From assembly GCA_016931225.1 (NCBI GenBank), contig JAFGFE010000018.1, forward strand, positions 1-64,000: a stretch of DNA of 64,000 bases. The letters are read 5' to 3'. Shown here piece by piece: positions 382 through 27,170 of the stretch. The stretch is from Candidatus Zymogenaceae bacterium. GTDB taxonomy: Bacteria > Desulfobacterota > Zymogenia > Zymogenales > Zymogenaceae. A program made the position numbers and the translations under genes. Below the pieces are notes generated by a model that saw nothing but the letters and a program-made list of their open reading frames with translations, ran no database searches and was not told where the DNA came from. Position 1 is the first letter of the stretch. Each line of letters begins with the position of its first letter.

Positions 382-430
382 TTATATCTGACAATCCGCA
401 TTCGCCGTTAGTTTGGCTTTTATATCTGAC
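382..430 (-). repeat. Two direct copies of TTATATCTGAC upstream of the Gfo/Idh gene
   Basis: The 11-mer TTATATCTGAC occurs at 382-392 and again at 420-430, 38 bp apart. Read on the minus strand, each copy gives GTCAGATATAA, and the proximal one contains a TATAAT-like -10 element 80 bp before the Gfo/Idh start. The spacing of close to four helical turns would suit a regulator bound at both copies, but this is inference from the repeat alone. Confidence 0.3.
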
Positions 431-522
431 TCTCTTTTAGTTCGATATACTACAAAACTATTTCATAACGATCAACAATTAAATCTCCAAATTGGCCGTG
501 CTTCATTCCGTCTGGAATTTTT

Positions 523-840
523 TTACCACCGAAACGCCTCGAGATACTCCTTCCTCATATCATCAACGATATACTTTTGACACTGCTCCGTACCCTCTAT
601 GGTTGAGTCTCCCGGAAGCTGTTTCAGATTCGCTCGGTTGCCGGTGCTATTTTAGGAAATGGATCGCAAACAAATGTCTGAGGGTGCGGGGATGGATATC
701 CATATCCAGTGCGCCGTTTCCGATGATCTTCACGATATCCCTGGATACCGTATTGAGGTTTGAGCGGACGGCCCTCCCTCTTCCCTCTTTCGTTTGATAA
801 GGGAGGTGAGCCTCTCCTATGGATCATCAAAACGGGCTAA
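523..840 (-). pseudogene. Decayed tyrosine recombinase/integrase, C-terminal part
   Basis: The minus strand carries the conserved end of a XerC/XerD-like recombinase in two frames. One frame has VSRDIVKIIGN, then HPRTLRHLFAIHFLK, matching the family box HPHxLRHxFATHLL with its catalytic H-x-x-R, and stops at a TAG. The next frame resumes with ANLKQLPGDSTIE and ends YIVDDMRKEYLEAF, as in the alpha-helical end that follows the active Tyr. A frameshift and the absence of an N-terminal half mark it as a pseudogene. It lies just downstream of the tRNA-Ala 3' end, the usual integration spot for such enzymes. Confidence 0.6.
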
Positions 841-885
841 CATACTTGACATATTAAAACCACATGACTATATATAACACCCCAT

Positions 886-917
886 AAAAAAAGGGCCGCG
901 AAAAAATCGCAACCCTT
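886..917 (-). terminator. Rho-independent terminator of tRNA-Ala
   Basis: On the minus strand AAGGGTTGCGA pairs over 11 positions (two G-U) with TCGCGGCCCTT around a T5 loop and is followed by a run of T. It begins 9 bases after the tRNA 3' end. Confidence 0.8.
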
Positions 918-925
918 GAAAAATT

Positions 926-1001
926 TGGTGGAGCTGAACGGGATCGAACCGTCGACCTCATGACTGCCAGTCATGCGCTCTCCCAGCTGAGCTACAGCCC
1001 C
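926..1001 (-). tRNA. tRNA-Ala (anticodon GGC)
   Basis: The 76-nt cloverleaf includes an encoded CCA (926-928). The acceptor stem GGGGCUG/CAGCUCC has the G3:U70 pair that identifies alanine tRNAs. The anticodon loop CUGGCAG gives anticodon GGC, reading GCC/GCU codons. The T-arm holds GGUUCGAUCCC. It is transcribed away from the divergent tRNA-Leu gene. Confidence 0.97.
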
Positions 1002-1037
1002 GTGTTCTTTTGATTGTTATTATGAAAATAATTAATT

Positions 1038-1066
1038 TTTATATCACACCTTTTTTTCTATGTCAA
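1038..1066 (-). promoter_or_regulatory. Sigma-70 promoter of tRNA-Ala
   Basis: On the minus strand TTGACA (1061-1066) and TATAAA (1038-1043) are 17 bp apart, about 37 bp ahead of the mature tRNA. This is a near-consensus strong promoter. Confidence 0.8.
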
Positions 1067-1105
1067 TAAATTTGTCCGAATTATCGGGTTTCTTTTTCAA
1101 ATATC

Positions 1106-1135
1106 TTGACATCCCGAGACATTTCCACCTATAAT
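1106..1135 (+). promoter_or_regulatory. Sigma-70 promoter of tRNA-Leu
   Basis: Consensus TTGACA (1106-1111) and TATAAT (1130-1135) with an 18-bp spacer lie 9 bp before the tRNA 5' end, so transcription should begin almost at the mature end. Confidence 0.88.
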
Positions 1136-1144
1136 AACCTTCGT

Positions 1145-1232
1145 GCCGGAGTGGTGAAATTGGTAGACGCAGGGGACTCAAAATCCCCCGGACCTCGCGT
1201 CCGTGTGGGTTCGATTCCCACCTCCGGCACCA
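1145..1232 (+). tRNA. tRNA-Leu (anticodon CAA)
   Basis: An 88-nt class II tRNA with a long variable arm (CGGACCUCGCGUCCG). The acceptor stem GCCGGAG pairs with CUCCGGC, CCA is encoded, and the anticodon loop CUCAAAA gives CAA, reading UUG. It stands alone between its own promoter and terminator. Confidence 0.97.
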
Positions 1233-1248
1233 ATTTGCTATTGATTTT

Positions 1249-1279
1249 GGGGTTTTACGAGACAGTAAAACCCTTTTTT
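1249..1279 (+). terminator. Rho-independent terminator of tRNA-Leu
   Basis: GGGTTTTAC pairs perfectly with GTAAAACCC around GAGACA, followed directly by six T. It begins 16 bases after the tRNA end. Confidence 0.85.
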
Positions 1280-1310
1280 CGGGGTGCATCGGATAAATCA
1301 AGGCGATTCA

Positions 1311-1344
1311 AACAGCCCGACCCGGAATTCCGGGTCGGGCTGTT
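1311..1344. repeat. Perfect 34-bp palindrome
   Basis: AACAGCCCGACCCGGAA is followed at once by its exact reverse complement. There is no loop and no T-run on either side. It lies between the end of the tRNA-Leu unit and the end of the oppositely oriented Cache gene, so it could be a two-way transcription barrier, but it could also be a protein site. Confidence 0.6.
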
Positions 1345-1448
1345 ACCGTGGTGCTTTATTCGTATGTGAGGAGGAGGTACAGAAACGCAATCAGCTCGAT
1401 ATCAAAGCATAATAGAGGCGGACGGATGAAATTTTCAACCTCCCTTTA

Positions 1449-2030
1449 CTATTTTTCGGTTGTTGACTCCGGGGTCTCTGGAGTTTCCGGAGCCTCCGGG
1501 GTTTCCGTAGTTCCCGATGTTCCGGTACGGTCGAGCATAGATTCGAGTTCGGAGAGGGAGAGGTCCGGCTCATAAATACCGGCTCCCACCTGGTACGGCT
1601 GCCCCGGGACCTGGTAGATGTATGATATCTTTCGACTCGGTTCCGCTTCTCCCAATTTCTCCCACCAGTATTCGGTAAAACCACCCTTCTCCCGCTTGGC
1701 GGCGTTACACAGGTCAAGTCCCAGGTATGTTCCATGCACGTCGATCAACGTATTCAGCTTTACGCCGATCAGTTGATTATTCGGATGGGCTGCGATAATC
1801 CCCTCGTCACAGTCGTAGACGAAAATGTAGGTATCCGCCCAGACCCATGGTCCCGCCGGATTATTAAATTCACTTAGACCGGCAGGTCCCTTTTCCTCCA
1901 ATACCCGTGCCGCCAAACGTACTTTTGTGATGATGACATCGAAAGTTGTGCCTTCCTGGGGATATGCGTTGGCGGCGAAAACCAGGACCAACACAAACAA
2001 CAAGAGCGGTATCCATTTCATCGATTTCAT
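1449..2030 (-). CDS. Secreted Cache-domain protein
   Basis: A 193-residue exported protein. Residues 1-24 form a signal peptide with a long hydrophobic core, cleaved near NAYPQ. Residues 30-150 match a single Cache fold of the kind found in the periplasmic part of chemoreceptors and histidine kinases, with the blocks WADTYIFVYD, AAHPNNQLIG and KISYIYQVPG. There is no transmembrane or signalling domain, so it should act as a free periplasmic ligand-binding protein. The tail (about 172-193) is a low-complexity stretch rich in Thr, Pro and Glu. GGAGG lies 6 bases before the ATG. The ligand and partner are unknown. Confidence 0.8.
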   Translation of the reverse strand: MKSMKWIPLLLFVLVLVFAANAYPQEGTTFDVIITKVRLAARVLEEKGPAGLSEFNNPAGPWVWADTYIFVYDCDEGIIAAHPNNQLIGVKLNTLIDVHGTYLGLDLCNAAKREKGGFTEYWWEKLGEAEPSRKISYIYQVPGQPYQVGAGIYEPDLSLSELESMLDRTGTSGTTETPEAPETPETPESTTEK

Positions 2031-2434
2031 TTCATTCCTCCATGGATATGATCTAAATTAGTATTTTTGAGTGACTCAGGATTGTGTACTACCCGTTTAT
2101 TATAGCATTTTTGTTTAAATTTGTGAGTTCATTATTCATGTGAAATAAAAAAGAAAAATCTGTGCCGATAATGGTATTCAGCTTCGGTCGGGCTGAATGC
2201 CGGGTGATTTTATATACACAATGCGGATTCGTCTCCTGGGGGGCCGATTGAAACCGAGAGCGGTCTCGACGCCGGGAGTATCGTCTTCTTGTCCGCCGCA
2301 GTTCTGTGCCGAAGAAAATCGGGAAGGGCTCTCTGGAATGGATATGGAACGGGATTGATCACGTGAACGAGGCGAATGCCGCAGAAGACATTCGCCTCGT
2401 GTTTGTTTGGATTTTCCGTCTTTTTAACGAGGGG
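2031..2434. other. Intergenic region with two stem-loops, no gene seen
   Basis: No supported reading frame is present. A stem-loop at 2173-2201 pairs GGTATTCAGC with GCTGAATGCC. A second, stronger one is listed separately at 2368-2399. The AT-rich stretch at 2070-2160 probably carries the promoter of the Cache gene, but no clear -35/-10 pair stands out. Confidence 0.5.
2368..2399 (-). terminator. Stem-loop after the FecR-like gene
   Basis: CGAGGCGAATG and CATTCGCCTCG form a perfect 11-bp stem with a 10-base loop, 36 bases after the stop codon of the minus-strand FecR-like gene. The T-run of a classical terminator is missing, so it may instead protect the mRNA end. Confidence 0.5.
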
Positions 2435-4192
2435 TTAGGGGAAAATTCCGATTTCCTGATCAAAGAAGTAACCGTAGTCGGAGTAGGTGACGTTGATCCA
2501 GTTATCTGGAGACAGTCTATATCGAAAGCTGCCCGCGCAGAACGGCACGGCGAGACAACTGGTGACCTCCTCGACAACGAACTCACCGCCGAATCCGTAC
2601 TCCTCCCCGGTCTTCGCTTGATAGTAGCTGCGGGTCAGAGTGCGGGGAAAGGTATCACAATCCGTGCTGATGGTGACGGTGATGGAATTGATCGAAGGCG
2701 GTATGTCCGGAACTGTCATCAGAACGACCACTACTTTGTTGCAGGGTGGAGCTGCGGGAATTGTATCCACATACATCTCAAGGTCCGGCTCGATCTCGGC
2801 ATAACCGGTGTCGAACCAGTCTCCCTCGGTGTGAATAAGGCGGTACTCGTCGGTTTTGGAAAGCCACCATTTGGTTGTGCCTGTGTTGGTCGTCCCCGCC
2901 TCGTTCGTCGTCCAATGAGCGGTGAAAATGATGTCGTCGCCCAGGGAGTCCACCTGTTTTATGGAGTAGGTGACCGAGAGCAGCGTGTTCCTTCCGGTGT
3001 CGATGTATGAGTCAATGGAGTCTCGAACAAGCTCTTCCCGAGAGTAATACCCCCCGGCGGAGCCGTCGTAGTCCCGGGAGATGAGGTCCTGTGCGTCGTA
3101 CGTGTTTCCGTTCTTGACGGAGCGAAACAGGGTTTCCAGAAAACGCTCCGCCACTTCCCGATAATTGAGCGGTGTATAGGTGATCATCCAGGGGCCGGTG
3201 TCCCGATAGTCCGAGACAACCCCCGCCGTGTTTGTGGCCCGAACGGTGAGCTCGTAATCAATATATTCCCTCGGCTGGAATTCATATGACCAGCTTTCCG
3301 TGCCGACGGTGTCTTCCCAGGTCATGCCTCCGTCGAGGGACACCTCAACGCCGGATATGGGGGATGCTTCGTCGTTCGTTGTTCCGGTAATGAGAACGGT
3401 GCCTGATCGGGTCATGTCGTCGTCCGTGAGGGTGAGGGTGCGTTCGATATCATCCAGGTTTATGATACGGTTTATAAAAACGGACGTCACGACGGGCGGC
3501 TCGGCGTCTCCTCCCGCGCCCGCCCCGTCGTCGAACTGCATGTCTTTGAGAAAATCCTCGGCGACGCCTTTTTCGGTATCCTCGGGACCCGACGGGACCA
3601 CACCCGAGCGCAGAAAGATGGAACGTCCGGTGCATACTTTATACGGCGCCATCCCAACAAGCTCACGATGCGATACCTCAACGCATCCGCTGACGGTCAT
3701 GATAAAGGTTCGACTCAGGTCGGGATCGTAGGACTCGCCGAAATCGGTTCCCCGGACGCCGCATGAAGCGTTTTCCGTCTCGATGATGAGTTCGGCCTTC
3801 CCTTCCGAAGGCGGATTGACGAAGGTGCGAATTTTCCCGCGGATCAGCTCGAAGGTGCTGAGGTGTACCTTCGTGACCTCAACGGTCCCGAGGGACTTAA
3901 TGGCGACGAGGCTGTCCGGACCGATCTTCAGGATACTATCTTCGGCGAACAAGATTTGAACGTATCCCTCGGCGTCCGTTTCGATTTGATCTCCGGCGTG
4001 TAACACATCGCCCGTTTTCAACGGTATCCAGTCCGAGCTTCCGTGATAGAGTACGTCGACGAATCCCTCGACGGACGTTACAACGGCGGTATCATCACGT
4101 GCCTTCTGGGCCATGACCCGGGGAATCCCCGTTGTTGCAATGAGCGCCAGTATCAGGACACACCCGATAGCGTATGAGAGTCGATGTGTCAT
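2435..4192 (-). CDS. FecR-domain exported protein with Ig-like and NTF2-like regions
   Basis: A 585-residue exported protein. Residues 1-28 are a signal peptide (core IGCVLILALIATTG). Residues about 38-160 form a FecR domain: VEGFVDVLYHGSSDWIPLKTG, GDQIETDAEGYVQILF and the Cys-containing ETENASCGVRGTDF. A disordered linker leads to a beta-sandwich at about 240-330 with ISGVEVSLDGGMTW, as in bacterial Ig-like folds. Residues about 345-460 resemble an NTF2/SnoaL-type domain (YREVAERFLETLFRSV). Stand-alone FecR domains of this kind are periplasmic and not tied to iron sigma factors. GGGAGAG precedes the ATG. The function is unknown; the neighbours suggest an envelope role. Confidence 0.75.
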   Translation of the reverse strand: MTHRLSYAIGCVLILALIATTGIPRVMAQKARDDTAVVTSVEGFVDVLYHGSSDWIPLKTGDVLHAGDQIETDAEGYVQILFAEDSILKIGPDSLVAIKSLGTVEVTKVHLSTFELIRGKIRTFVNPPSEGKAELIIETENASCGVRGTDFGESYDPDLSRTFIMTVSGCVEVSHRELVGMAPYKVCTGRSIFLRSGVVPSGPEDTEKGVAEDFLKDMQFDDGAGAGGDAEPPVVTSVFINRIINLDDIERTLTLTDDDMTRSGTVLITGTTNDEASPISGVEVSLDGGMTWEDTVGTESWSYEFQPREYIDYELTVRATNTAGVVSDYRDTGPWMITYTPLNYREVAERFLETLFRSVKNGNTYDAQDLISRDYDGSAGGYYSREELVRDSIDSYIDTGRNTLLSVTYSIKQVDSLGDDIIFTAHWTTNEAGTTNTGTTKWWLSKTDEYRLIHTEGDWFDTGYAEIEPDLEMYVDTIPAAPPCNKVVVVLMTVPDIPPSINSITVTISTDCDTFPRTLTRSYYQAKTGEEYGFGGEFVVEEVTSCLAVPFCAGSFRYRLSPDNWINVTYSDYGYFFDQEIGIFP

Positions 4193-4356
4193 AATGTCTC
4201 TCCCTGGGAAATCAATAAGAAAGGATTATCGTAAACGGTATACAGAACATTTTGTGTAAAGGGCATACGATACTACTTTTTCTATTGTACGAAAAGATCG
4301 GTGATTTGAAAAGAGGATATATGATAATTCTCTTCTGGCGAATCGCACAGAATCAA

Positions 4357-6519: not shown

Positions 6520-6969
6520 TCAATCCCGGATAACCGTTACGACGCCGTCCATTGTGACGGTGAGTGACGCTCCGTCCGTGACGTAATCCAGGAATTCTTC
6601 GCCGAGGCGATCGACCGTGACGATTCGATGTCCGCTCCAGATATCGGACAGTATCACCCCGGCCGCCGCAAGAGAATCGATCTCCTGGGAAAAAAGCATG
6701 GCCCGGGGGGCCAGGCCGAGGTCCACGGCGGTCATGAGCACCAGGCCGCCGGTGGTGGAACCGATGGTCTTCGGAAGACAGATGATTTTATCGGTGAGGT
6801 CTTTTTTGAAGAGGTCCGGGTTGTCCTGATCGGAGCAGATCGCCTGTTTCGACTTTCTCAGGGCGCTCTTTATATAGGACGCGAGGCTGTTGAACCCCTG
6901 TCTCGATACCACGGCGTGGCCCGAAATATCTCCAGGCAGGAGCGCTCTTCCGGTAAATTCCTTTTTCAT
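6520..6969 (-). CDS. Aconitase X small (swivel) subunit
   Basis: A 149-residue protein matching the DUF126 swivel domain of aconitase X. The blocks GRALLPGDISGHAVVS, LPKTIGSTTGG (substrate-binding loop of the swivel), AVDLGLAPRAMLF and GVILSDIWSGHRIVTVD are all present at the usual spacing. With the catalytic subunit it forms a two-chain dehydratase. Known members act on cis-3-hydroxy-L-proline in bacteria and on 5-phosphomevalonate in archaea. It begins 16 bp after the large-subunit gene with GAGAGG as ribosome site and is the last gene of the sugar-catabolic run. No clear terminator follows. Confidence 0.88.
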   Translation of the reverse strand: MKKEFTGRALLPGDISGHAVVSRQGFNSLASYIKSALRKSKQAICSDQDNPDLFKKDLTDKIICLPKTIGSTTGGLVLMTAVDLGLAPRAMLFSQEIDSLAAAGVILSDIWSGHRIVTVDRLGEEFLDYVTDGASLTVTMDGVVTVIRD

Positions 6970-6985
6970 TGGTACCTCTCTCGTA

Positions 6986-8266
6986 TTATCCGCATATCAT
7001 CGCAAGGGTTTCGTCGTCGGGATAAAATCGTGCGGTCGTGTAGGTCCTGAGTTTGTTTGAGTTGGTTATCACAGGGATCTTCGACGAAATGGGATTGCTC
7101 ATGAACGCCACGGGGCAGACGGACGACAGGTACACACCGGCCCGTTCGAGGCGTGACGCCGTCTCGTTTTTTTCTCGAAAGATCCGCATGATCTCCGGTG
7201 CCGCCGTGAGCACCACCGGCATGGAAACCCGGGTCTTCCCGATGGAGTCGAGGCGTTGAGTGATTGCGGCGGCCCAGTCCGCCACCTGCTCCAGGGACAG
7301 ATGCGGGCATCCGATGAAACAGCGTTTCGGCTTGAGATCAGGTCGTTTCCACAAGATCTTATATCCGTTCCTGATGCGTGAAAGCTCCTCGTCCGTGATC
7401 ACATACGTGTGGTGGTTGAGCCTCAGAAGGGAATCGCCGTGCGTTTTCGCTTCGGGGGTGATGTGTTCAATGTGAAAGAGCCCCACCGCCCCGTTTGATG
7501 CCGTCGCGGCGCCGAAGTCCTTCAGGTAATCCCGTATGAAGGCGTCGCTCTTCCCTTTGAGGAGCGCTTCCAAACCGCCGATATACGGCACATCCTCCAT
7601 CACCTTCATGCCCACGGCGGAGCCGAGAAGCTGGGGATTCGGAAGCGTGTCGGTTTTGATCTCGACCAGCCAGTCCGCCCGGCGGCCATCGTCGTTCAGA
7701 AGGCCGAACAGGGGGGCGCGGTTGATGATGTTCATGAGGATGTCTATGCCCGTGGAGTTTCTGTTTGTTCGGGCGCCGATTACCGAATTGACAAAGACCA
7801 CCGCCGAGGATTCCGACCACGCCAGAATATCGCCAAAGGAGGGGGTGTTGCCTACTTCAGGGAGGTAAGAGGTGCACGAATACGAGCGGGAATCGATCAG
7901 CCCCAGGCTGTCAAGCTGGCGCTCGAGGTTTTTCTGTGCGCCGTAGATGTATCGAAACAGGAGGTTTTCAAAAAAAGACGACGGCGTTGTGTGAGGGTCG
8001 TAGGTTCTGGGATTGGTGGTGAAGGGACGGAGTGTTTCCAGACTCTCGTCGATCAGCGCATCGAGCAGGCCGTAGTATGATTTCAGTATTGAGGCGCCGA
8101 AGGACATGGCGAGATGCGGCCGCCCGGAAATGGGAATCAGGCGCGTCGCGTCGAAGGCCTCGCCGTACAGGACGACCGATCGAAGCACCTTCTGCACTAC
8201 CGGTCCGCTCGATCCGGCGAGGATATCCCGCTCTTCCCGAGTCAACTCCATGCGATAGTCTTCCAT
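6986..8266 (-). CDS. Aconitase X catalytic (large) subunit
   Basis: A 426-residue DUF521 protein. The start at 8266 follows AAAGGACG and restores the family N-terminus MELTREERDILAG; an in-frame extension upstream is not family-like. Key blocks are SYSCTSYLPEVGNTPSFGD, AWSESSAVVFVNSVIGARTN, FIGCPHLSLEQ and SSVCPV; their three cysteines are the expected Fe-S ligands. The enzyme removes water from a hydroxy acid. The gene is two-chain rather than fused. Its neighbours are sugar kinases and an aldolase, not proline genes, so the substrate here may differ from the known ones. Confidence 0.88.
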   Translation of the reverse strand: MEDYRMELTREERDILAGSSGPVVQKVLRSVVLYGEAFDATRLIPISGRPHLAMSFGASILKSYYGLLDALIDESLETLRPFTTNPRTYDPHTTPSSFFENLLFRYIYGAQKNLERQLDSLGLIDSRSYSCTSYLPEVGNTPSFGDILAWSESSAVVFVNSVIGARTNRNSTGIDILMNIINRAPLFGLLNDDGRRADWLVEIKTDTLPNPQLLGSAVGMKVMEDVPYIGGLEALLKGKSDAFIRDYLKDFGAATASNGAVGLFHIEHITPEAKTHGDSLLRLNHHTYVITDEELSRIRNGYKILWKRPDLKPKRCFIGCPHLSLEQVADWAAAITQRLDSIGKTRVSMPVVLTAAPEIMRIFREKNETASRLERAGVYLSSVCPVAFMSNPISSKIPVITNSNKLRTYTTARFYPDDETLAMICG

Positions 8267-8385
8267 ATATCGTCCTTTTTTGAGGGGTTGAACGATGAGT
8301 CGTCGTGGATCTGATATCGAGAAGTCGTAGGAAGTTTCAAGCTGGACAAATGAGCATGTGTATCGTGAGAATACAACAGGAACAC

Positions 8386-8414
8386 AGTATAGCCCGGGAG
8401 ACGTAAAAAAACAA
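8386..8414 (-). promoter_or_regulatory. Likely internal promoter ahead of aconitase X genes
   Basis: The 249-bp gap between fucK and the aconitase X large subunit is the longest in the gene run. On the minus strand it holds TTGTTT-17 bp-TATACT (8414 to 8386). A second pair, TTGTAT-17 bp-TATACT, has its -10 at 8427-8432. The two aconitase X genes may therefore be expressed partly on their own. Confidence 0.45.
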
Positions 8415-8515
8415 CAAATATGATAGAGTATAACACGGGTGTTTCGACGATACAAAATACGAGCAGACGAGTGCGAATATCCGGCATATGGCCGAAGGGT
8501 CGGGAGGCATAAGAT

Positions 8516-10027
8516 TCAGCGGCGGTAGAAATCCGAAAGGTCGGGCCCGATTGTCAAAAACCGATCGAAGAGTTCGTCGTAAATAGTTCTTTCCTGTGAC
8601 GGCTCTATGATGTCCGTGAAGAAATCGATTGCATTATGAGCCTCATCGAAGTTTTTATATATCCCGGCGCCGATGAATCCGAATACGGCCGCCCCCACGA
8701 CGGTATTCTCCCGCTGCCTGGTCAGACGGATCGGCATGTTCAGGACGTCGGCCCTGATACGGTTCCAGAGGTCGTTTTTAGCCCCTCCCCCCACCAGCGT
8801 CAGCATGCCCGGGAATACATCCGTGTGCTTCGACAGGAGATTCATGGCCATCCGCAGGTGGAACGAGAGTCCCTCCAGGAAGGCCCGGTAGATCTGTCCC
8901 CTCTCGGTATGGAGGGTAAGGCCGAGGATGGTCCCCGCGGTGTTGTGATGTCCGGTCACGCCGGTGCCCTGGAGGAACGACGGCTCAACGAAGACGCCCC
9001 CGGAGCCGGGAGGATGGTTCCTCGCCTCGTCGATCATCTTTGCGTATCTCTCCGGGTCCGATATACAATCCCGAAAGAAGAGGCGTGAGGTCCATTCCAA
9101 AGCGCCGGAGGCGATCCACTGCTGTCCCACGTTGAAGAGGCCGCAGATCGCGTCACACTCGTTTTTCAGCCCCGCTTCCCGGGCGGCGTCCGTGGTGATT
9201 GGTCGGTGGTGCCTCAGAAAGAGTATCTCCCAGGTACCGGAGCTGAGCACCGCATCATTGGGACGGCACCCCGAGCCGCATACGGCGAACTGCGTGTCGT
9301 GCCCCGCGGCGACCACCGGCACATTGGGCGCCAACCCCAAAAGGGAGGCGGCATCCTTCGTTAGCGGGCCGATGATCTCTCCCGGCTCCACCATCTCACC
9401 GAAAAACGAGGGCACAAATCCCAGGCGGCCCAGGAGATCCGTTGAAAATATTCTTTTCCTGATATCGATGAGCATGGTGCAGTCCGCCGTGGTTGGATCG
9501 TTCACCATGCGTCCGGTGAGTTTATGGTTTATCAGACCCGGCGTCATTAGGTAGGCATGGGCGTTTTCAATGATGTCGGGATTATTCTCCCAAAACCAGA
9601 GAAGGCGCATGATCGTGTGCTGGCGCATCACCTGTTCGCCGCTGATCGAAAAGAGGTCGATAAAGGGTATGTAGTCGTCGATGCGTTCGGCGACGGGTAC
9701 GGTGCGGGGGCACTGCCAGGAGATGATCGGGTAGAGAAGATTGCCGTCCACGTCCACCGGCGCCCCGTCGTCCCCAAAGGTGGTGACGACGACCGCCGCG
9801 ACGCTCTTTTTCCCCACTCGGGCGATTACCTCCCTGGCGCATTGGACGAGCTTTTCCCAGATCGCTTCGAAATCCCAGATCAACCAAGCTCTGTCCGGAA
9901 ACTGGCGCACCGACCGGTTGTCTTTATATGAGGAGTGGAGGATGTTTCCCCGGGCGTCGACGGTGATGGCCCGGACATTGGTCGCCCCGCAATCGAGAAC
10001 CAGTACGACATGTGTCGGTGCATTCAT
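8516..10027 (-). CDS. fucK: L-fuculokinase (FGGY family)
   Basis: A 503-residue FGGY kinase that follows E. coli-type FucK closely: LVLDCGATNVRAI at the phosphate-binding start, VVTTFGDDGAPVD, LLYPIISWQCPRT, AGHDTQFAVCGSG, VLSSGTWEIL and the LVGGGAKNDLWNRI signature near residue 410. It should phosphorylate L-fuculose or a similar ketose at C1, giving the substrate of the class II aldolase encoded two genes upstream. AGGACAGG lies at the ATG, 13 bp after the PfkB gene. No fucose isomerase (fucI) or mutarotase gene is in the window, so the ketose must come by another route. Confidence 0.85.
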   Translation of the reverse strand: MNAPTHVVLVLDCGATNVRAITVDARGNILHSSYKDNRSVRQFPDRAWLIWDFEAIWEKLVQCAREVIARVGKKSVAAVVVTTFGDDGAPVDVDGNLLYPIISWQCPRTVPVAERIDDYIPFIDLFSISGEQVMRQHTIMRLLWFWENNPDIIENAHAYLMTPGLINHKLTGRMVNDPTTADCTMLIDIRKRIFSTDLLGRLGFVPSFFGEMVEPGEIIGPLTKDAASLLGLAPNVPVVAAGHDTQFAVCGSGCRPNDAVLSSGTWEILFLRHHRPITTDAAREAGLKNECDAICGLFNVGQQWIASGALEWTSRLFFRDCISDPERYAKMIDEARNHPPGSGGVFVEPSFLQGTGVTGHHNTAGTILGLTLHTERGQIYRAFLEGLSFHLRMAMNLLSKHTDVFPGMLTLVGGGAKNDLWNRIRADVLNMPIRLTRQRENTVVGAAVFGFIGAGIYKNFDEAHNAIDFFTDIIEPSQERTIYDELFDRFLTIGPDLSDFYRR

Positions 10028-10040
10028 CCTGTCCTCTTTT

Positions 10041-10967
10041 TTATTGTTCCGTTATGATTGCATGTTCGATGATATCTTCAAGGTTAGTATCGTCCCAGAG
10101 GATCTCTCGCGAGCTGGCGCACAAGGTTCCCGCGGCAACGGCCCGGACGAACGTGGTGCGGTCCCACCTCTTTGTGACATCGAAGGATGCGGCGAGACCC
10201 GCCACGAAGGCGTCCCCGGCGCCCACCGGGTTGACGGCGGGTCCTGAAGGAGGCGTGATGGAGACGATTTTGGTCCGGGTGATGAAGGTCGCTCCGTCGC
10301 TCCCGAGGCTCAGGGCGACGACCGACACCATATCCGTGATTTTTTTCAACTTACGGATAATGTACTTATCCGTCGTTTCCCCCGTCAGGGCGGCCGCCTC
10401 GTCCCGGTTCGGCTTGATGACCTCTGGATGAAATTTCAACGATGCGACAAGGGCCGCGCCGCTGGTGTCCAGGATGACCGGGATGTTCTCTTCGTGGGCG
10501 CTGTCGATGAGGCGACCGTAATAGTCATCCGGCGCGTCGCTCGGGAGGGAGCCGGAGAGGACCACCAGGGAAGGCCTCTTGATCGTGAGGAGCTCCGCGA
10601 AGAACGATCCGAACTCATTCAGGGTGTTTCTGTCGATTGCGGGCCCCGATGGGACGATCTTCGTCTCTCTTCCCGTCTTCTCTTCAATATACGCCACGGT
10701 GATGCGGGTAAGCATGTCTACGGGATAAAAGGCGCACTCGATGCCGGAATCGATCAATCGCTCCCGGATAAAATCACCGGTAAAACCGCCCAAGAAACCG
10801 GTGGCGAGCACATCGGCCCCTAGAAAACGTGCGACTCGGGCGACGTTGTTTCCCTTGCCGCCTGGATCGGGAGGCTGATCTACCCCCCGGTTGGTGGTGT
10901 GATGCGCAAACGGCCCGCCGAAGACGGTGAAGTCCACGGCGGGATTGAGGGTGACGGTGAGGATCAT
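10041..10967 (-). CDS. PfkB-family sugar-phosphate kinase (1-phosphofructokinase/tagatose-6-phosphate kinase type)
   Basis: A 308-residue ribokinase-fold kinase. It opens with MILTVTLNPAVDFT, carries the substrate motif GGKGNNVARVARFLGA near residue 38 and the anion-hole motif PVGAGDAFVAGL near residue 250. The length and the TLNPAVD start fit the FruK/LacC branch, which adds a second phosphate to fructose 1-phosphate or tagatose 6-phosphate. In this operon it could process a ketose phosphate made by one of the two FGGY kinases. It starts 7 bp after the aldolase gene with AGGCGAG ahead of ATG. Confidence 0.82.
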   Translation of the reverse strand: MILTVTLNPAVDFTVFGGPFAHHTTNRGVDQPPDPGGKGNNVARVARFLGADVLATGFLGGFTGDFIRERLIDSGIECAFYPVDMLTRITVAYIEEKTGRETKIVPSGPAIDRNTLNEFGSFFAELLTIKRPSLVVLSGSLPSDAPDDYYGRLIDSAHEENIPVILDTSGAALVASLKFHPEVIKPNRDEAAALTGETTDKYIIRKLKKITDMVSVVALSLGSDGATFITRTKIVSITPPSGPAVNPVGAGDAFVAGLAASFDVTKRWDRTTFVRAVAAGTLCASSREILWDDTNLEDIIEHAIITEQ

Positions 10968-10974
10968 TTCTCGC

Positions 10975-11571
10975 CTACATATCCAGGAGCTTCCCGAGAA
11001 TCTGGCAGCGGCATTCCGACTCCACCCGGTCCACGATATCGAAGCATGCGTTCATGTCCCTTCCCATCGCCACGATGCCGTGGCGAGGGAGGATGACTTC
11101 GAGGGCGGTCTTTTCCCACTGATTCCGTTTCGAGATGAAGTGGGAGATGACATTCACGGCGAGCTCCGGGCTGTAGCCGGGGGTCTCCGGGATGCAGTCG
11201 ATGGTCCCAAACTTCTCGGTCGCCTGGAGCGTCGGGATGATGGGTCGGGATTTCGCCACGAATACGTTCGTCCAGTAGGGATGGGCGTGAATGATCGCGC
11301 CGGCATCATTGAACTCCCGATAAAGCCCCAGGTGCATGGCCCCTTCCCGGGTGATGTCCTCGGGGCCCTCCAGGACGGTGCCGTTGAGGTCCACGATGGA
11401 AAGGTCGTCCTTTGTGGTCTGCCAGCGCAGGCGGTATCCCATAAGACGGGGGGTGATGCAGACGATATTTTCCCGCCGGACGCTGATGTTGCCGCCGGCG
11501 ATGTCGGAGAGCCGTTTATCCCATATCAGTCGGGCGATCTCAATAACAAGGTTTTTCATATCTTCTTTCAT
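10975..11571 (-). CDS. Class II aldolase, L-fuculose/L-rhamnulose-1-phosphate aldolase type
   Basis: A 198-residue class II aldolase/adducin protein. It has the phosphate-loop sequence AGGNISVR, the acidic residue in TREGAMHLGLY, the zinc pair in IIHAHPYW and a third His in LPRHGIVAMG; these match the Glu plus three His of FucA. It would split a ketose 1-phosphate into dihydroxyacetone phosphate and an aldehyde such as lactaldehyde. The pairing with fucK supports a fuculose-like substrate. The start could also be the ATG four codons later, which has AAAGAAG ahead. Confidence 0.85.
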   Translation of the reverse strand: MKEDMKNLVIEIARLIWDKRLSDIAGGNISVRRENIVCITPRLMGYRLRWQTTKDDLSIVDLNGTVLEGPEDITREGAMHLGLYREFNDAGAIIHAHPYWTNVFVAKSRPIIPTLQATEKFGTIDCIPETPGYSPELAVNVISHFISKRNQWEKTALEVILPRHGIVAMGRDMNACFDIVDRVESECRCQILGKLLDM

Positions 11572-11635: not shown

Positions 11636-12652
11636 TCAGGTGGATGCCCGGATGATGAAATCATCTTCCAGGACAATATTTTCCGGCGGTCCCGTTTTTG
11701 CACCCTCCATACGCTCCATCAGGAGGGTTGCGGCGCTCTCCCCCATCCGGTGGGTGTTCTCGGACACCACTGTCAGTGGAGGAAAAAGCAGGGCCGACCA
11801 GGGGGTGTCGTCGAAGCCGATCACCGACACGTCATCCGGTATCGAAATGCCCCGCTCCTTCAGGATATCGAGGGCCACGGAGGTTTTCCCCTGGGTCGAG
11901 CAGATGAGCCCGTCCATGGGAAAGTTTGAGTCCAGAAATTCGCGAAACGCCCGGGCGATGTCCGCCCTGTCGTGATCTTTAACCGGGATGATGGCGGCGT
12001 CCGTAAGGCCCGCGTCGGAGAGGGCCGCCTCGAAGCCCGATTTTTTCTGGTTCGCCGAGAGCGTTCGGCGGTCGAACCCCAAAAGCACGAGATGCCGCCG
12101 CCCCTTTTCGATCAGGTGCTTGGTGGCGGTGTGGGCCGCGTTGAAGTTGTCAGAAATAATGGAGTCGGTATCCAAGCCTGTGATTTTTCTGTTTATCTGC
12201 ACGATGGGTGTGCCCCGGGACGTGATGGAACGGAGAAAATCGAGGTTGTCCAACGAACAGGGCACAAGGAGAATGCCGCTGATGCGCTTTGCCTGAAAGA
12301 TATCCAGCACCTCCCGCTCCCGGGCCGGGTCTTCTTCGCTGGAGCAGAGAAGAAAGCCGTATTGATTCTGATGGGCGATCTCGTTGACCGCCTGCATGAT
12401 CGGCGTATAGAATCGACTCATGACCGGGATGACAAGACCGATGGTCTTGGCGTCCTTCATCTTGAGGGCCCGGGCCAGGGGATCGGGGGTGTAGTTCAGC
12501 TCCGTGATGGCCCGCTCGATTTTCTGCCCCAGCTCGGGAGATACGTAGCGTGTGCCGTTGATATAGGCGGATACGGTGGCCCGGGATACGCCCGCAAGAC
12601 GCGCCACATCCACGCTTGAGGGACGTTTTGCCTGTGCCGATTTCCTGTCCAT
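11636..12652 (-). CDS. LacI-family transcriptional regulator
   Basis: A 338-residue LacI-type repressor. The helix-turn-helix is SSVDVARLAGVSRATVSAYI (about 11-30), followed by the hinge helix region PDPLARALKMKD and the periplasmic-binding-like sensor domain (TIGLVIPVMSRFYTP onward), with the dimer-side motif VSVIGFDDTPWSALLFPPLT. It lies inside the catabolic run, with 64-66 bp gaps on both sides. The likely targets are the twin near-palindromes at 20547 and 20735; the effector is probably an intermediate of the pathway. Confidence 0.92.
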   Translation of the reverse strand: MDRKSAQAKRPSSVDVARLAGVSRATVSAYINGTRYVSPELGQKIERAITELNYTPDPLARALKMKDAKTIGLVIPVMSRFYTPIMQAVNEIAHQNQYGFLLCSSEEDPAREREVLDIFQAKRISGILLVPCSLDNLDFLRSITSRGTPIVQINRKITGLDTDSIISDNFNAAHTATKHLIEKGRRHLVLLGFDRRTLSANQKKSGFEAALSDAGLTDAAIIPVKDHDRADIARAFREFLDSNFPMDGLICSTQGKTSVALDILKERGISIPDDVSVIGFDDTPWSALLFPPLTVVSENTHRMGESAATLLMERMEGAKTGPPENIVLEDDFIIRAST

Positions 12653-12718: not shown

Positions 12719-13735
12719 TCACAAATCAACGATGACTTTCAGTGTTTCGTCCGTATGCCGCATGAGAAGTCGATATCCCTCGATCCAGTTATCGAAAGGG
12801 ACGTGGTGGGTGATCAGCGGCTCGAGGGACACCCTCCTTTTTTCCATCAGATCGACAGCCCCGTAAAAATCGTCCCAGGTATACATGAGGGAGCCGGTGA
12901 GGGTCAGCTCCTTGTCCTGGACCAGGACCATCTCCGTTGTCGGATCGTCCCCGTATACCCCCAGCACCACCACGTCTCCGCCGCGGCGGGTCGCCCGGAT
13001 GCACGCGTTGAGGGCCGACGCGGTCCCGGCGCACTCGAAGGAGACGTCCGGGCACCTCTCGAAGAGGCCTTTTACCTGCTCCTCGATGGGGGACGACGAT
13101 CGCGGCTCGATGACGTCGATGGAGAGATCCTCAAGGATTTTCCTTCGAAACGCCACGCGCTCGGCGACGACGAGGCGCCGCGGCCCGAACAGGCGCGCCG
13201 CCTGGGCGATGAGGTTGCCGATGGTGCCGCCGCCCACGATCAGCACGTCTTGATCTGTCAGGGAGGGGGGGTGGCCTACGCCGTGGACCGCGACGGCCAG
13301 CGGCTCCGTCATGGCCGCCTGGTCGGGACTGATACCCTCCGGCATCCTGACGACATGCCGTGCGGGAACCGACAGGTACTCGCTCCCCGCGCCGGGGAGC
13401 GCTCCTCCGATGAACAGCAGATCGTCGCACCGGGCGATGAATCCCTCCCGGCAGCGGTCGCACACCCCGCACCCAACCGCGGGCTGTACCGTGACCAGGT
13501 CGTTCGGTGCGAGGCCCGAGACGTCTTTGCCGACCTCTTCGACGAAGCCGGAAAACTCGTGCCCCTGCACCAGGGGAAACTCCACCAGGGGATGCTTTCC
13601 CTTGAACACGTGGAGGTCCGAGCCGCAGATGCCGATCCGGGACACCCTGATAAGGACCTCATCCGCACCGGGCGTCGGCGTCTCGACGTCGCGGTACAAA
13701 ATCGTATCCGGTTTCGGAAGGTATGCCTGCTTCAT
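12719..13735 (-). CDS. Zinc-dependent alcohol/polyol dehydrogenase
   Basis: A 338-residue medium-chain dehydrogenase of the sorbitol/threonine dehydrogenase branch. Catalytic-zinc motifs are GICGSDLH and GHEFSGFV; the structural zinc loop is CGVCDRCREGFIARC. The NAD site is VLIVGGGTIGNLIAQAA. The start at 13735 gives the usual N-terminus MKQAYLPKPDT; longer in-frame starts overlap the upstream gene. It begins 7 bp after the CCG protein gene. A polyol-to-ketose oxidation would supply the kinases in this operon, which has no sugar isomerase. Confidence 0.88.
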   Translation of the reverse strand: MKQAYLPKPDTILYRDVETPTPGADEVLIRVSRIGICGSDLHVFKGKHPLVEFPLVQGHEFSGFVEEVGKDVSGLAPNDLVTVQPAVGCGVCDRCREGFIARCDDLLFIGGALPGAGSEYLSVPARHVVRMPEGISPDQAAMTEPLAVAVHGVGHPPSLTDQDVLIVGGGTIGNLIAQAARLFGPRRLVVAERVAFRRKILEDLSIDVIEPRSSSPIEEQVKGLFERCPDVSFECAGTASALNACIRATRRGGDVVVLGVYGDDPTTEMVLVQDKELTLTGSLMYTWDDFYGAVDLMEKRRVSLEPLITHHVPFDNWIEGYRLLMRHTDETLKVIVDL

Positions 13736-13742
13736 GAGACGT

Positions 13743-14864
13743 CTATATCCTTTCCGCAAGAAATGCCCCGATATCCGTGACGGTGATCGTAAGATCCTTC
13801 GCCTTCGCCGCCCGGCGGAAGGATACCGTGCAGTTGGGACATGCGGTGATGAGCGTTTCGACGCCGTCGGATATGGCGCCGGACAAACGATGCGCCGCGA
13901 CCAGTTCCGCAATGTCCGGGTCCGTCAGAAACATCCCGGCGCCCGCACCGCAGCATTCGGCCATCTTTTTGCTGTGAAAGAGCTCGATGGGAGGAGCACC
14001 CGTCGCCGCCTCGATAACCCTTCTGGGGGCGTCCAGGATGCCGGCATTTCTCCCCAGGTGGCAGGGATCATGATACCCGACCAAAGATGTATCGTCGACC
14101 TTTTTTACATTCAAATCCCCGGCGGTGATCGCGCGATCCAGATACTCGGTGAAGTGACGTATTTCGATCTTTTCCGGCATCGAGACTCCCATCCGGGGGA
14201 GGTAGTCTGTCATCGCCCGGTACTGGTGGGCGCAGCCAATGACGATTCTCTTCGGTGCGACCGTCGTGACCGCATCGATGAGGCGTTTCGCCTCTGCCCG
14301 CGCCTGCTCCACGTAGCCCAGCTCGAAGAGCCCCGCGATCGCCGACGGCTCCCGCTCGAGGATTCCCCAGTCGCTTCCCGCGGCCGTCATCAGGACGGCC
14401 GCCGACTCCAGCACCTCCGTGGTCTCTATCCTGGCGGCTGCGCCTGTGAGAAAGAGGATATCGGGGTGCTTCTTCCCGACGACGTCCTTTTGTATCGAAA
14501 GGTTCTTTATGTTTTCTGCGCCGGCCTCGTCACGGGAGATGAGCTCATCGGCCGCTTCTTTCACCCGGTCGGGCACGGCGTTTGCTTGTATTATTTCCTC
14601 CCTCGCCTGGCGGACCAGCTCGTCCTCCCGCCAGTGATAGGCGCAATCCTCCCGGCACAGGCCGCACTGGCTGCACTGGTAGAAGCGGTCGACGATCGCC
14701 TTCGTCCAGGAGAGCTTCTTCGCGTCGATCTCCGCCCGGAGGAGGGCGTACCCCCTCGGGGTGTGGGAGTCGAGCTTCGTGGCCAGGAAGGTGGGGCACG
14801 CGTGCCGGCACATGAAACAGTGTTTGCAGCTCTGTATGGTCTCTTTTATCTGTTCGGTATCCAT
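13743..14864 (-). CDS. CCG-type heterodisulfide-reductase-like iron-sulfur protein (GlcF/LutA-like)
   Basis: A 373-residue electron-transfer protein. Two ferredoxin-type [4Fe-4S] motifs (CKHCFMCRHACP at about 10, CSQCGLCREDC at about 58) are followed by two CCG units: DPCHLGR with AECCGAGAGMF, and ITACPNC. The start at 14864 lies 2 bp after the stop of the flavoprotein gene, so the pair is translated together. Such proteins take electrons from a GlcD-type flavoprotein and pass them to quinone or another carrier. Alternative upstream starts run through the flavoprotein gene in another frame and are not credible. Confidence 0.87.
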   Translation of the reverse strand: MDTEQIKETIQSCKHCFMCRHACPTFLATKLDSHTPRGYALLRAEIDAKKLSWTKAIVDRFYQCSQCGLCREDCAYHWREDELVRQAREEIIQANAVPDRVKEAADELISRDEAGAENIKNLSIQKDVVGKKHPDILFLTGAAARIETTEVLESAAVLMTAAGSDWGILEREPSAIAGLFELGYVEQARAEAKRLIDAVTTVAPKRIVIGCAHQYRAMTDYLPRMGVSMPEKIEIRHFTEYLDRAITAGDLNVKKVDDTSLVGYHDPCHLGRNAGILDAPRRVIEAATGAPPIELFHSKKMAECCGAGAGMFLTDPDIAELVAAHRLSGAISDGVETLITACPNCTVSFRRAAKAKDLTITVTDIGAFLAERI

Positions 14865-14866
14865 CT

Positions 14867-16309
14867 CTATTCTCCCAGGCCGAGTTTTCCGGGGTTCATG
14901 ATGTTGTTCGGGTCCAGCGCCCGCTTGACGGCGCGGGCGATCTCGTAGCCGTCGCCGTAGATGTCGCGCATCATCCTGCCGCAGCGAAGGCCGATGCCGT
15001 GATGCTCGTTGACCACGCCGTTGTTCTCCACCGACGCCCTCACCGCCGCGTCCATGATCCTGTTGTAGAGCCTCATGGCGTCTTTGGGATCGTCGGGGAA
15101 CTCCTTGATGAGAAACGTGGGGTAGAAGCTCGTTCCCCAGTCGTACCAGTGGGAGAAGTGCGCGTGAAATTCCGCGTTCCACTCGGCGAAATCATTCTCG
15201 ACGCTCCGTTTCATCTCATCATAGATGGTCTCGATATCCTCATAGGGGGCCACGGTATCGGTGACCGCGGTCATCCAGGGATAGGCGATGTAGTCGTTTG
15301 GGGGATAGTAGGACTTGTAGCGTCCCTCCCACCAGTTCTTCCCCGGCTCCTCCCCCAGGTCCCGGGCGCCCGACGTGAGCAGGATGCCGGTCGCCTCGGT
15401 CATCTGGGCGTCCACGATGGACGTCATCCCGTCGAAGCCGATGAGCATCACGCAGCCCTCCTCCTCCACACCGAACTGCTTTTTCATGATGTGCCGGGTG
15501 TCTTTCTCGTCGTACAGGCGCATCAGACAGGGATCAACGCCGTTGACCATGATCTTTCTGCCCGCCTCGATGCCGTCCTTTAGGTTCGGCAGGAGAAATC
15601 CCCAGAAGATACGCTTCTGGGGGAGGGGGTGAATTTTGCAGACCGCCTCTGTGACGATCCCGAAGGTCCCCTCGGCCCCGAGGAAGAGCCGCGAGTAGTC
15701 GGGGCCGGTGGAGTGAAGACGAACGGGGAGGCTCTTGAAGATCCGTCCAGTGGGGAGGACCACCTCGAGACGATGGGTCATGTCGGAGAGCTTCCCGTAC
15801 TTGGAAGAGAGTACCCCCGTGCCGTTGGTGCTGATGAATCCCCCCAGTGTCGAGGTGGTGAACGACGCCGGGAAGTGGTTCATGGTGTAACCCCGGCGGT
15901 TCAAGCGCTCTTCCAGATGCTTCTGAAGGATGCCCGGCTGGACGGTGACGGTGAGGGATCGCTCGTTTATGGAGATGATGTTATCCATCCGCTTTGTATC
16001 CACAACGATCCCGCCGGTCAAGGCCGAGGCCCCGCCGCCGTCGCCGGCGCCGCCGCCCCGGGGGATGACCGGGATCTTGTAATCGTTACAGAGCCTGACG
16101 ACGGCCGCCACCTCCTCGGTCGTCTCGGGAAAGACGATGGCGAAGGGCTTCGGGAATTCGAACTCGGTGAATTTCCAGAACCTGGTCACCCACCAGACGT
16201 CCAGGGACTGGGCCTCGATCTCGGCCTCGTCTGTGATGACGCGTTCTTCTGCCAGAAGCCGCTCAAGCTCATATTTAATCATTTCGTGATAAAAGGTTGT
16301 GCCGCTCAT
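14867..16309 (-). CDS. FAD-binding oxidase, VAO/GlcD family
   Basis: A 480-residue flavoprotein of the vanillyl-alcohol oxidase fold. The FAD domain has PFAIVFPETTEEVAAVV, the PP-loop RGGGAGDGGGAS and FLGAEGTFGIVTEA; the C-terminus closes with DPNNIMNPGKLG, as in D-lactate, glycolate and alkyl-DHAP enzymes. HHGIGLRCGR near the end supplies the usual active-site histidines. Coupled to the next gene, it forms a GlcD/GlcF-like module that oxidises a 2-hydroxy acid or similar alcohol. Lactate from lactaldehyde is a possible substrate, but this is inference. Confidence 0.87.
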   Translation of the reverse strand: MSGTTFYHEMIKYELERLLAEERVITDEAEIEAQSLDVWWVTRFWKFTEFEFPKPFAIVFPETTEEVAAVVRLCNDYKIPVIPRGGGAGDGGGASALTGGIVVDTKRMDNIISINERSLTVTVQPGILQKHLEERLNRRGYTMNHFPASFTTSTLGGFISTNGTGVLSSKYGKLSDMTHRLEVVLPTGRIFKSLPVRLHSTGPDYSRLFLGAEGTFGIVTEAVCKIHPLPQKRIFWGFLLPNLKDGIEAGRKIMVNGVDPCLMRLYDEKDTRHIMKKQFGVEEEGCVMLIGFDGMTSIVDAQMTEATGILLTSGARDLGEEPGKNWWEGRYKSYYPPNDYIAYPWMTAVTDTVAPYEDIETIYDEMKRSVENDFAEWNAEFHAHFSHWYDWGTSFYPTFLIKEFPDDPKDAMRLYNRIMDAAVRASVENNGVVNEHHGIGLRCGRMMRDIYGDGYEIARAVKRALDPNNIMNPGKLGLGE

Positions 16310-25146: not shown

Positions 25147-26595
25147 CTATCCCTTGACCTTCTCATCGATGACGGCGCCGTCTCGATCGAGGAGCTGAAC
25201 CAGAAGCTTCATCTGCCCGATGGCGTGGGTGGCGCAGGAGAGACACGGGTCGTACGCACGGATGCCCACCTCGATGTGGTTGAGGAGCCCCTCGGTGATC
25301 TCTTTCCCCTCCAGATACTGCTTCGCGACCATCTGCGTTACCCGGTTCATGGGCTCGTTGTTGTTCGTCGTGGAGACGATCAGGTTGGCGAGCACGATCT
25401 GGTCGTTGTCGTCGATCTCATAGTGGTGGAAGAGGGTGCCTCTCGGCGCCTCGAGGTACGCCACGCCGCGGTTTCTCCGCGTGCCTGTAACCGTCAGGTC
25501 GCCGCTCAAAAGGTCCGGATCGTCCAGAAGCTCCCGGATCTTTTCGGCGGCGTGAATCGTCTCGATCAGCCGGGCCCAGTGATAGGCCAGGGAAGAATGG
25601 ACGGGCCGCCCGCCACCCAGGGCCATGAATTCCTGGCGCTCCTTTTCGGCGATGGGGGTGTCGATGTAGTTACAGGCGTTGACCCGGGCCAGGGGACCCA
25701 CGCGATACCAGCCCTTCTCCTTGCCCAGCGGCTTGATGAAGGGGAACTTCATGTAGCTCCAGGGGCGGACTTCCTCGGCGATGTAGTCAAGGTAATCGGC
25801 GGGCTTGACCTGATCGAAGATGATCTTACCGTCGGCGTCGATGGCCCTCAGATTCCCGTCGTACAGGTCCATACAGCCGTCTTCCTTGACGATGCTGACG
25901 AAGTTGGAGTCGAAGGTGCCGAACTTCAACAGCTCGTCCTTGTTTTTGCTGATCACGTCCTTGCAGATCGAAAGGCCTAATTCTGCCCATTCAACCATGG
26001 TATCGGCGTCCTTTTTGAGGAAATCCCGATCCTCGACGGTCAAATGCTTGTTGATGCCGCCGGGGATGGCGCCGGTGCCGTGGACTTTCTTGCCGGCGGT
26101 CGCCTTGATGACTTCCTGGCCGTACTTGCGCATCAGGACCGCCTTGGTGGCGAGTTCCGGGTCGGCTTCGATGATCGCGATGACGTTTCTCTTCTCGGGC
26201 GGCGCGTCGAACCCGAACAAAAGATCCGGGGCGGAGAGATGGAAGAAGTGGAGGGCATGGGACTGATAGGTCTGCCCGTAATGCATCAGGCGGCGCATTT
26301 TTTCGCCGGTGGGGGTAAGCTTGTCCGCACCGACGATCACGTCGGTCGCCTTTGCGGCGGCCAGGTGATGGCTCACCGGGCAGATCCCGCACAGACGTTC
26401 CACGATGTTCGGGGCTTCCCAATAGAGCCTTCCCTGAACGAATCGCTCGAATCCGCGGAATTCATTGATGTGAAAGCGCGCCTGTTCAATATTGCCGTTT
26501 TCGTCAACATGGAGGGTCACTTTGCCGTGCCCCTCGACCCGGGTAACCGGATTGATGACTATTTTTCTTTTTCCCTTTTTAGCTGCAGCAGCCAT
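25147..26595 (-). CDS. hoxH: NAD-reducing [NiFe]-hydrogenase large subunit
   Basis: A 482-residue group 3 hydrogenase catalytic subunit. The nickel site is made by RLCGICPVSHH (about 67-77) and DPCLSCATHA near the end; both CxxC pairs are intact. The tail after the last His (AIGQMKLLVQLLDRDGAVID) is the extension removed by the protease encoded next. It splits or forms H2 in the cytoplasm, passing electrons to HoxY. GGAGG lies 9 bases before the ATG. With HoxFUY it should be a group 3d enzyme. Confidence 0.93.
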   Translation of the reverse strand: MAAAAKKGKRKIVINPVTRVEGHGKVTLHVDENGNIEQARFHINEFRGFERFVQGRLYWEAPNIVERLCGICPVSHHLAAAKATDVIVGADKLTPTGEKMRRLMHYGQTYQSHALHFFHLSAPDLLFGFDAPPEKRNVIAIIEADPELATKAVLMRKYGQEVIKATAGKKVHGTGAIPGGINKHLTVEDRDFLKKDADTMVEWAELGLSICKDVISKNKDELLKFGTFDSNFVSIVKEDGCMDLYDGNLRAIDADGKIIFDQVKPADYLDYIAEEVRPWSYMKFPFIKPLGKEKGWYRVGPLARVNACNYIDTPIAEKERQEFMALGGGRPVHSSLAYHWARLIETIHAAEKIRELLDDPDLLSGDLTVTGTRRNRGVAYLEAPRGTLFHHYEIDDNDQIVLANLIVSTTNNNEPMNRVTQMVAKQYLEGKEITEGLLNHIEVGIRAYDPCLSCATHAIGQMKLLVQLLDRDGAVIDEKVKG

Positions 26596-26615
26596 AGGTC
26601 GGTTCCTCCAGCGAT

Positions 26616-27155
26616 TTAATCGTATTTAATGAGCTCATAGGGGAGTTCGGGTTCCTTCCCGGAAAGAAGCGCCACCAGGGCGTTCCAGATGGTGTCCGCC
26701 GAGGGCGGACAGCCGGGGAGGAAGTAATCTACCTTGATAACCTCGTGAAGCGGATACACCTTGTCCAGGAGGAGCGAGATGTCCGGGTCGTTGGGGATGA
26801 TCCCGTCGACGACCGTCGGGCCGTTCAGGTACGCCTCCTCCATACACTCCTTGAGGGTTACGGTATTTCGCATGGAAGGGACCGAGTTGGCCACGGCACA
26901 GGAGCCGAGGCCGATGATGATCTTGCAGTTTTCCCTGAACTTGCGCGCCACTTCCACGTGTTCTTCATTGCTGACGCCGCCCTCTATAATGCCGATATCC
27001 ACAGGCTTCGTGAATTCCTTGATATCGTCGATGGGCGACTTGTTAAACTCCACAAGCTCCACCAGCTTGAGGATTCTATCGTCTATGTCCAGAATGGACA
27101 TGTGACAGCCGAAACAGCTTGTCAAATGCTGCGTTGCGACCACAGGTTTTGCCAT
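26616..27155 (-). CDS. hoxY: NAD-reducing hydrogenase small subunit
   Basis: A 179-residue small subunit without a Tat signal or membrane anchor, as in soluble group 3 enzymes. The proximal [4Fe-4S] ligands are visible in LTSCFGCHMSILD, LGSCAVANS and PGCPPSAD. It passes electrons from the NiFe site to HoxU. GAGGAGAACG precedes the ATG, 15 bp after hoxU. Confidence 0.92.
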   Translation of the reverse strand: MAKPVVATQHLTSCFGCHMSILDIDDRILKLVELVEFNKSPIDDIKEFTKPVDIGIIEGGVSNEEHVEVARKFRENCKIIIGLGSCAVANSVPSMRNTVTLKECMEEAYLNGPTVVDGIIPNDPDISLLLDKVYPLHEVIKVDYFLPGCPPSADTIWNALVALLSGKEPELPYELIKYD

Positions 27156-27170
27156 GACGTTCTCCTCTGC

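Follow-up and report, generated by a model that had tools for sequence, protein, structure and literature searches.

Genes at the AcnX Locus

The window is the whole stretch of DNA that was analysed, 64,000 nucleotides of contig JAFGFE010000018.1 from Candidatus Zymogenaceae bacterium. Two adjacent, intact genes on its minus strand encode the subunits of an aconitase X (AcnX) and are followed, at higher coordinates, by a cluster of sugar genes:

6520..6969, minus strand: acnX small subunit (acnXS), 149 aa, swivel domain 4 (PF01989; matches the TkAcnX small subunit, 7cnr_B)
6986..8266, minus strand: acnX large subunit (acnXL), 426 aa, domains 1-3 (PF04412 and residue mapping to the At and Tk AcnX)
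8267..8515, minus strand: intergenic stretch of 249 bp (44% G+C) between the FGGY kinase and acnX, a possible transcription-unit boundary
8516..10027, minus strand: FGGY kinase, L-fuculokinase-like (TIGR02628, 483.8 bits, cut-off 470.9), judged to lie outside the AcnX system
10041..10967, minus strand: PfkB kinase, 1-PFK subfamily (TIGR03168, 258 bits, cut-off 216.4)
10975..11571, minus strand: class II aldolase (PF00596)
11636..12652, minus strand: LacI-family regulator of the sugar cluster (PF00356, PF13377)

Both AcnX subunits scored above the curated Pfam cut-offs: the large subunit matched the AcnX family PF04412 at 267 bits (cut-off 31.5; E = 2.6e-79) and the small subunit matched the AcnX swivel domain PF01989 at 45 bits (cut-off 27; E = 7.4e-12). 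The two-subunit AcnX that had been predicted from the letters alone is therefore present, with matches far beyond chance. The two genes are 16 bp apart, and a purine-rich stretch precedes the ATG of each. This was the sole AcnX detected in the 3.7-Mb genome, and a search of viral contigs returned no relative. The large subunit was modelled with AlphaFold (mean pLDDT 92.4). The best PDB match of this model was TkAcnX (7cnr_A; TM 0.86 by target length), followed by AtAcnX.

Catalytic Residues

The sites of both solved AcnX enzymes, AtAcnX and TkAcnX, have been assigned (PMC8184944), and ApPMDh has been shown to carry a [4Fe-4S] cluster (PMC10040528). Site assignments from these two papers were mapped onto alignments with the window proteins. 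C131, C320 and C384 of the large subunit reproduced the three-cysteine cluster pattern of the archaeal type IIb enzymes (Cys110/Cys283/Cys342 of the Tk large subunit). Catalytic E152 and the carboxylate ligands S153, K405 and Y409 were also kept; in the solved enzymes the equivalents of these four residues bind the C1-C2-C3 portion that the substrates have in common. The small subunit kept the catalytic-base Ser and the Thr after it (GST), the presumed base being Ser71 within IGSTTGG. Together, the pair retained every residue of the common beta-hydroxy-carboxylate site (Ser, Glu, Ser, Lys and Tyr), and the Fe-S cysteines and swivel loop were as intact as had been expected. Since nothing is missing from the residues for the Fe-S cluster, the catalytic base, the carboxylate and the 3-hydroxyl, the enzyme should, on its sequence, be active.

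Phylogenetic Placement

A maximum likelihood tree was built from 54 AcnX large subunits, in which type IIa and type IIb were represented by one sequence each. The IIa label of the Phaeobacter sequence is our own; it was given because the enzyme has two subunits, because of where the sequence falls in the tree and because an ornithine cyclodeaminase gene is its neighbor. The window AcnX fell in a clade of 26 sequences (support 100/100, stem 1.92) outside types I/IIa and IIb, with IIa and IIb each standing on one sequence. Clustering with the cis-3-hydroxyproline dehydratases, the outcome that would have contradicted the original prediction, was looked for in this tree and did not occur.

Types IIc-IIf have been described as AcnX types of unknown function from which both sets of landmark residues are absent (PMC8184944; Watanabe 2021). 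By that description they resemble the window enzyme in being bacterial, in having two subunits and in lacking the landmarks of the two known activities. The window clade fits this description of types IIc-IIf taken as a group. The window pair is classed by sequence as a heterodimeric AcnX, and no characterised enzyme was found in the bacterial subfamily to which it belongs.

A Recurrent Flavoprotein Partner

For LhpI, the first AcnX, the substrate class reportedly came from gene context, since it lies in hydroxyproline clusters. Context was compared at 28 clade loci outside the window: 25 from the genome collection, together with L046, L047 and L058. An Old Yellow Enzyme (OYE)-family gene lay no more than 3 kb from acnX at 17 of these 28 loci, whereas the 15 loci of other AcnX types had no such gene (Fisher p ~6e-5, only an indicative value, since related loci and flanks of unequal length went into it). 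Three of the 11 clade loci without a nearby OYE were cut off by contig ends. The control type I loci had a hydroxyproline epimerase and a proline racemase alongside, or an Ldh-family gene, and the control IIa-like locus had an ornithine cyclodeaminase, in line with expectation.

The linked OYE had an Oxidored_FMN plus Pyr_redox_2 architecture and was 683-761 aa long. It was upstream of acnX in most Firmicutes, with a gap to acnXL of 12-61 bp in 12 of 13 measured upstream cases, and downstream in L030 and in L047, the latter from the window's own phylum. Loci L032 and L033 had a more distant OYE about 1 kb past acnXS. The arrangement is exemplified by Faecalicatena orotica NLAE-zl-C242 (L024), where OYE, acnXL and acnXS are three adjacent genes. 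The linked OYE resembled BaiCD, bilirubin reductase, 2,4-dienoyl-CoA reductase and NCR. At most clade loci the partner of acnX shares its domain pair with the family of BaiCD, bilirubin reductase, NCR and the clostridial 2-enoate reductase, but it scored under the curated cut-off of each named NCBIfam family that it matched, and the window has no linked copy.

Most OYE-linked loci came from related Lachnospiraceae and other Clostridia, as would be expected if the pairing reflected common descent of the gut MAG loci and not a common pathway. We regard this as unlikely: a genome of the window's own phylum has the pairing too, either gene may come first, some of the AcnX-linked OYEs are only ~30% identical to each other, and the short gaps are kept. 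No description of an AcnX-OYE pair was found in the literature searched, and nothing relevant turned up there on AcnX and sugars, on AcnX together with Old Yellow Enzyme or enoate reductase, or on DUF521.

Three further observations were made at these loci. An unverified 7-kb human faecal scaffold labelled as phage (L082; MT837347.1, 'Bacteriophage sp.') carries an OYE-acnXL-acnXS set at 411-4194; it is probably a misassigned bacterial contig. Amino-acid-type ABC transporter ORFs were seen by eye near acnX at L025 and L038, a lead too weak to build on. In L031 (a Spirochaetales MAG), a Cas9-like ORF of 1336 aa, also recognised by eye, lies on the opposite strand ~4.8 kb upstream of acnXL.

Features Specific to the Window and Sister Enzymes

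The sister gene of the window AcnX (58% identity) is in G013, a genome of the same family. Neither the window acnX nor its sister has a linked OYE. Both enzymes also depart from the clade in two loops of the large subunit: HLAMSF (window, residues 51-56) or HFAMSF (sister) against HLVTSF in most other clade members, and TTNPRT (residues 83-88 in the window) against T.DPRP. The solved enzymes grip the distal end of the substrate with these two loops, which are presumed to be pocket loops here. Since there is no linked OYE and two presumed pocket loops are changed, the window and sister enzymes probably differ from their relatives in the substrate or in what becomes of the product. They may have switched to a different substrate, or the unsaturated acid may be put to another use.

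The idea that the window genome carries an orthologous OYE partner at another site was considered and rejected, as the three homologues compared, all on other contigs, were only ~30% identical to the AcnX-linked OYEs. A dehydrate-reduce module therefore does not explain the window's own copy.

In the sister genome, the cluster is marR - Amidohydro_2 - acnXL - acnXS with gaps of 12-33 bp (L046, 8882-11982). The nearest solved relative of the Amidohydro_2 protein is the uncharacterised BB4693 (3irs). The amidohydrolase was considered as a partner common to both enzymes: five distant homologues of it (31-39%) occur in the window genome, none of them on the window's contig. The sister's Amidohydro_2 and MarR regulator could hint at what kind of substrate the window enzyme really takes.

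The Sugar-Gene Neighborhood

The sugar kinases and aldolase that had been named as neighbors of acnX were confirmed as a fuculokinase-like FGGY kinase, a 1-PFK-type PfkB kinase and a class II aldolase, with a LacI regulator. Together, the aldolase-pfkB pair and the fuculokinase-like kinase may form a ketose 1-phosphate aldolase route. The gaps among the sugar genes themselves were -26 to 66 bp, compared with 249 bp between them and acnX. A promoter-like match was found in this 249-bp gap at 8447-8420, from a weak scan (3 found against 1.5 +/- 1.3 in shuffles). The acnX genes may nevertheless be co-transcribed with the sugar genes, because they are on the same strand and next downstream.

Beyond the LacI gene, at 12719-16309, a Zn-dehydrogenase gene overlaps that of a GlcF-like Fe-S protein and is next to a GlcD-like FAD oxidase gene. 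Beside sugar kinases, this set could serve hydroxy-acid or glycolate oxidation. Farther along the window, at 25147-29647, are ORFs that by eye resemble a [NiFe]-hydrogenase large subunit and NuoF/NuoG-like diaphorase subunits.

The original prediction took these neighbors as a clue to a sugar-derived hydroxy acid as substrate, with AcnX as a sugar-acid dehydratase working with the neighboring kinases and aldolase. Several features agree with this: acnX shares its strand with the adjoining genes for the fuculokinase-like kinase, the PfkB kinase and the class II aldolase; GlcD/GlcF-like and Zn-dehydrogenase genes are in the same run; and the loops of the window and sister enzymes differ from those of the OYE-linked relatives. 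The comparison of loci argues against it. When the window neighbor proteins were compared with the 25 genome-collection loci (tblastn, E <= 1e-8), sugar kinases, aldolase and LacI were found at none, and the sole match was a GPH-type transporter homologue 5-9 kb away at L034 and L045. Sugar kinases, aldolase and LacI were likewise absent from L046 (by eye; ORF clustering joined no ORF to the window sugar genes), L047 (by its gene list) and L058, an annotated locus on a Rhodococcus opacus plasmid. Linkage of AcnX to sugar kinases and an aldolase was thus seen at 0 of the 28 clade loci outside the window genome. The sister enzyme shares the loop changes, yet it has other partners and no sugar genes nearby, and no homologue of the window aldolase was found in its genome at E <= 1e-20.

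The sugar genes also occur apart from acnX. The aldolase-pfkB pair (window 10041-11571) recurs, at 70% and 50% identity, in G347, a distant genome of the same phylum (L080, 13387-14912). There it is beside other ORFs that appear sugar-related by eye, and no FGGY kinase, LacI or acnX was found in the 36 kb fetched around it. With acnX found elsewhere without the sugar genes, the aldolase-pfkB pair found without acnX, and a 249-bp gap between them in the window, neither set depends on the presence of the other. Most likely, the sugar cluster next to acnX is unrelated to it. Sugar-acid dehydration, dropped as the leading reading once the 28 clade loci and the genome of the sister gene had been compared, is now held to be improbable. 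Of the original prediction, the two-subunit AcnX, its intact residues and its separateness from both known activities stand; a sugar-derived substrate read from the context does not.

The Two Known AcnX Activities

Landmark residues and the tree agree in ruling out both cis-3-hydroxyproline dehydratase and phosphomevalonate dehydratase, as had been anticipated. The window enzyme resembles type I and the two-subunit type IIa enzymes in its AcnX fold, its catalytic Ser/Glu/Lys/Tyr and, as with type IIa, its two subunits. However, only one of the landmarks of cis-3-hydroxyproline dehydratase, Thr72, has a kept equivalent. Those of Trp35, Asp203, Ile206 and Cys510 are Leu, Ala, Ser and Ala, and that of Asn294 is also not kept. 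The tree parts the window enzyme from type I/IIa, and no hydroxyproline genes are near the window acnX. The absence of a proline racemase, first remarked for the neighborhood, held for the whole window genome, where no Ldh_2 reductase was found either; one ornithine-cyclodeaminase-family gene was present on another contig. It is accordingly very improbable that the window AcnX is a cis-3-hydroxy-L-proline dehydratase.

Least probable of all is a mevalonate 5-phosphate dehydratase like those of archaeal type IIb (TkAcnX, 7CNR/7CNS; ApPMDh): two subunits, the nearest solved structure, the identical three-cysteine pattern and equivalents of Glu129, Ser130, Lys361, Asn79 and the small-subunit Ser62/Thr63 are shared, but the phosphate-binding Gly48-Val49-Ser50 loop is shortened (M/-/S), Asn53 is replaced by Ala, identity over the fold alignment is 27%, and TkAcnX joins other sequences in the tree.

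Proposed Mechanism and Significance

AcnX chemistry converts a beta-hydroxy carboxylate to an alpha,beta-unsaturated acid, and OYE-family enoate reductases reduce such compounds. From the genes, residues, clade and linkage observed, we infer an activity, a cluster type and an order of steps. AcnX would carry a [4Fe-4S] cluster that acts as a Lewis acid on the C3 hydroxyl of a beta-hydroxy carboxylate. The small-subunit Ser would take the C2 proton, water would leave and a 2-enoate would form. In most relatives, the adjacent OYE-family flavoprotein would probably reduce the double bond of the 2-enoate, giving a dehydrate-then-reduce module. In the simplest view, a free acid would lose its beta-hydroxyl in these two steps. 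A clostridial 2-enoate reductase has been described (PMC5882074).

On balance we favor, as the probable reading, that AcnX of this subfamily removes water from a beta-hydroxy carboxylate, that the OYE reduces the resulting 2-enoate in most relatives, and that the sugar cluster is an unrelated neighbor. More tentatively, the AcnX subfamily and an OYE-family reductase might together strip a free hydroxy acid of its beta-hydroxyl, with no CoA activation involved. Such a route would be widespread among gut anaerobes, and the window and sister enzymes would be a branch that keeps the dehydratase, with changed loops and without a linked reductase. The sugar neighborhood of the window is then a misleading clue to AcnX function. 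Dehydration and ene reduction usually run on CoA thioesters in anaerobes, whereas the context of this clade points to a coupled dehydratase and ene-reductase that act on free hydroxy acids.
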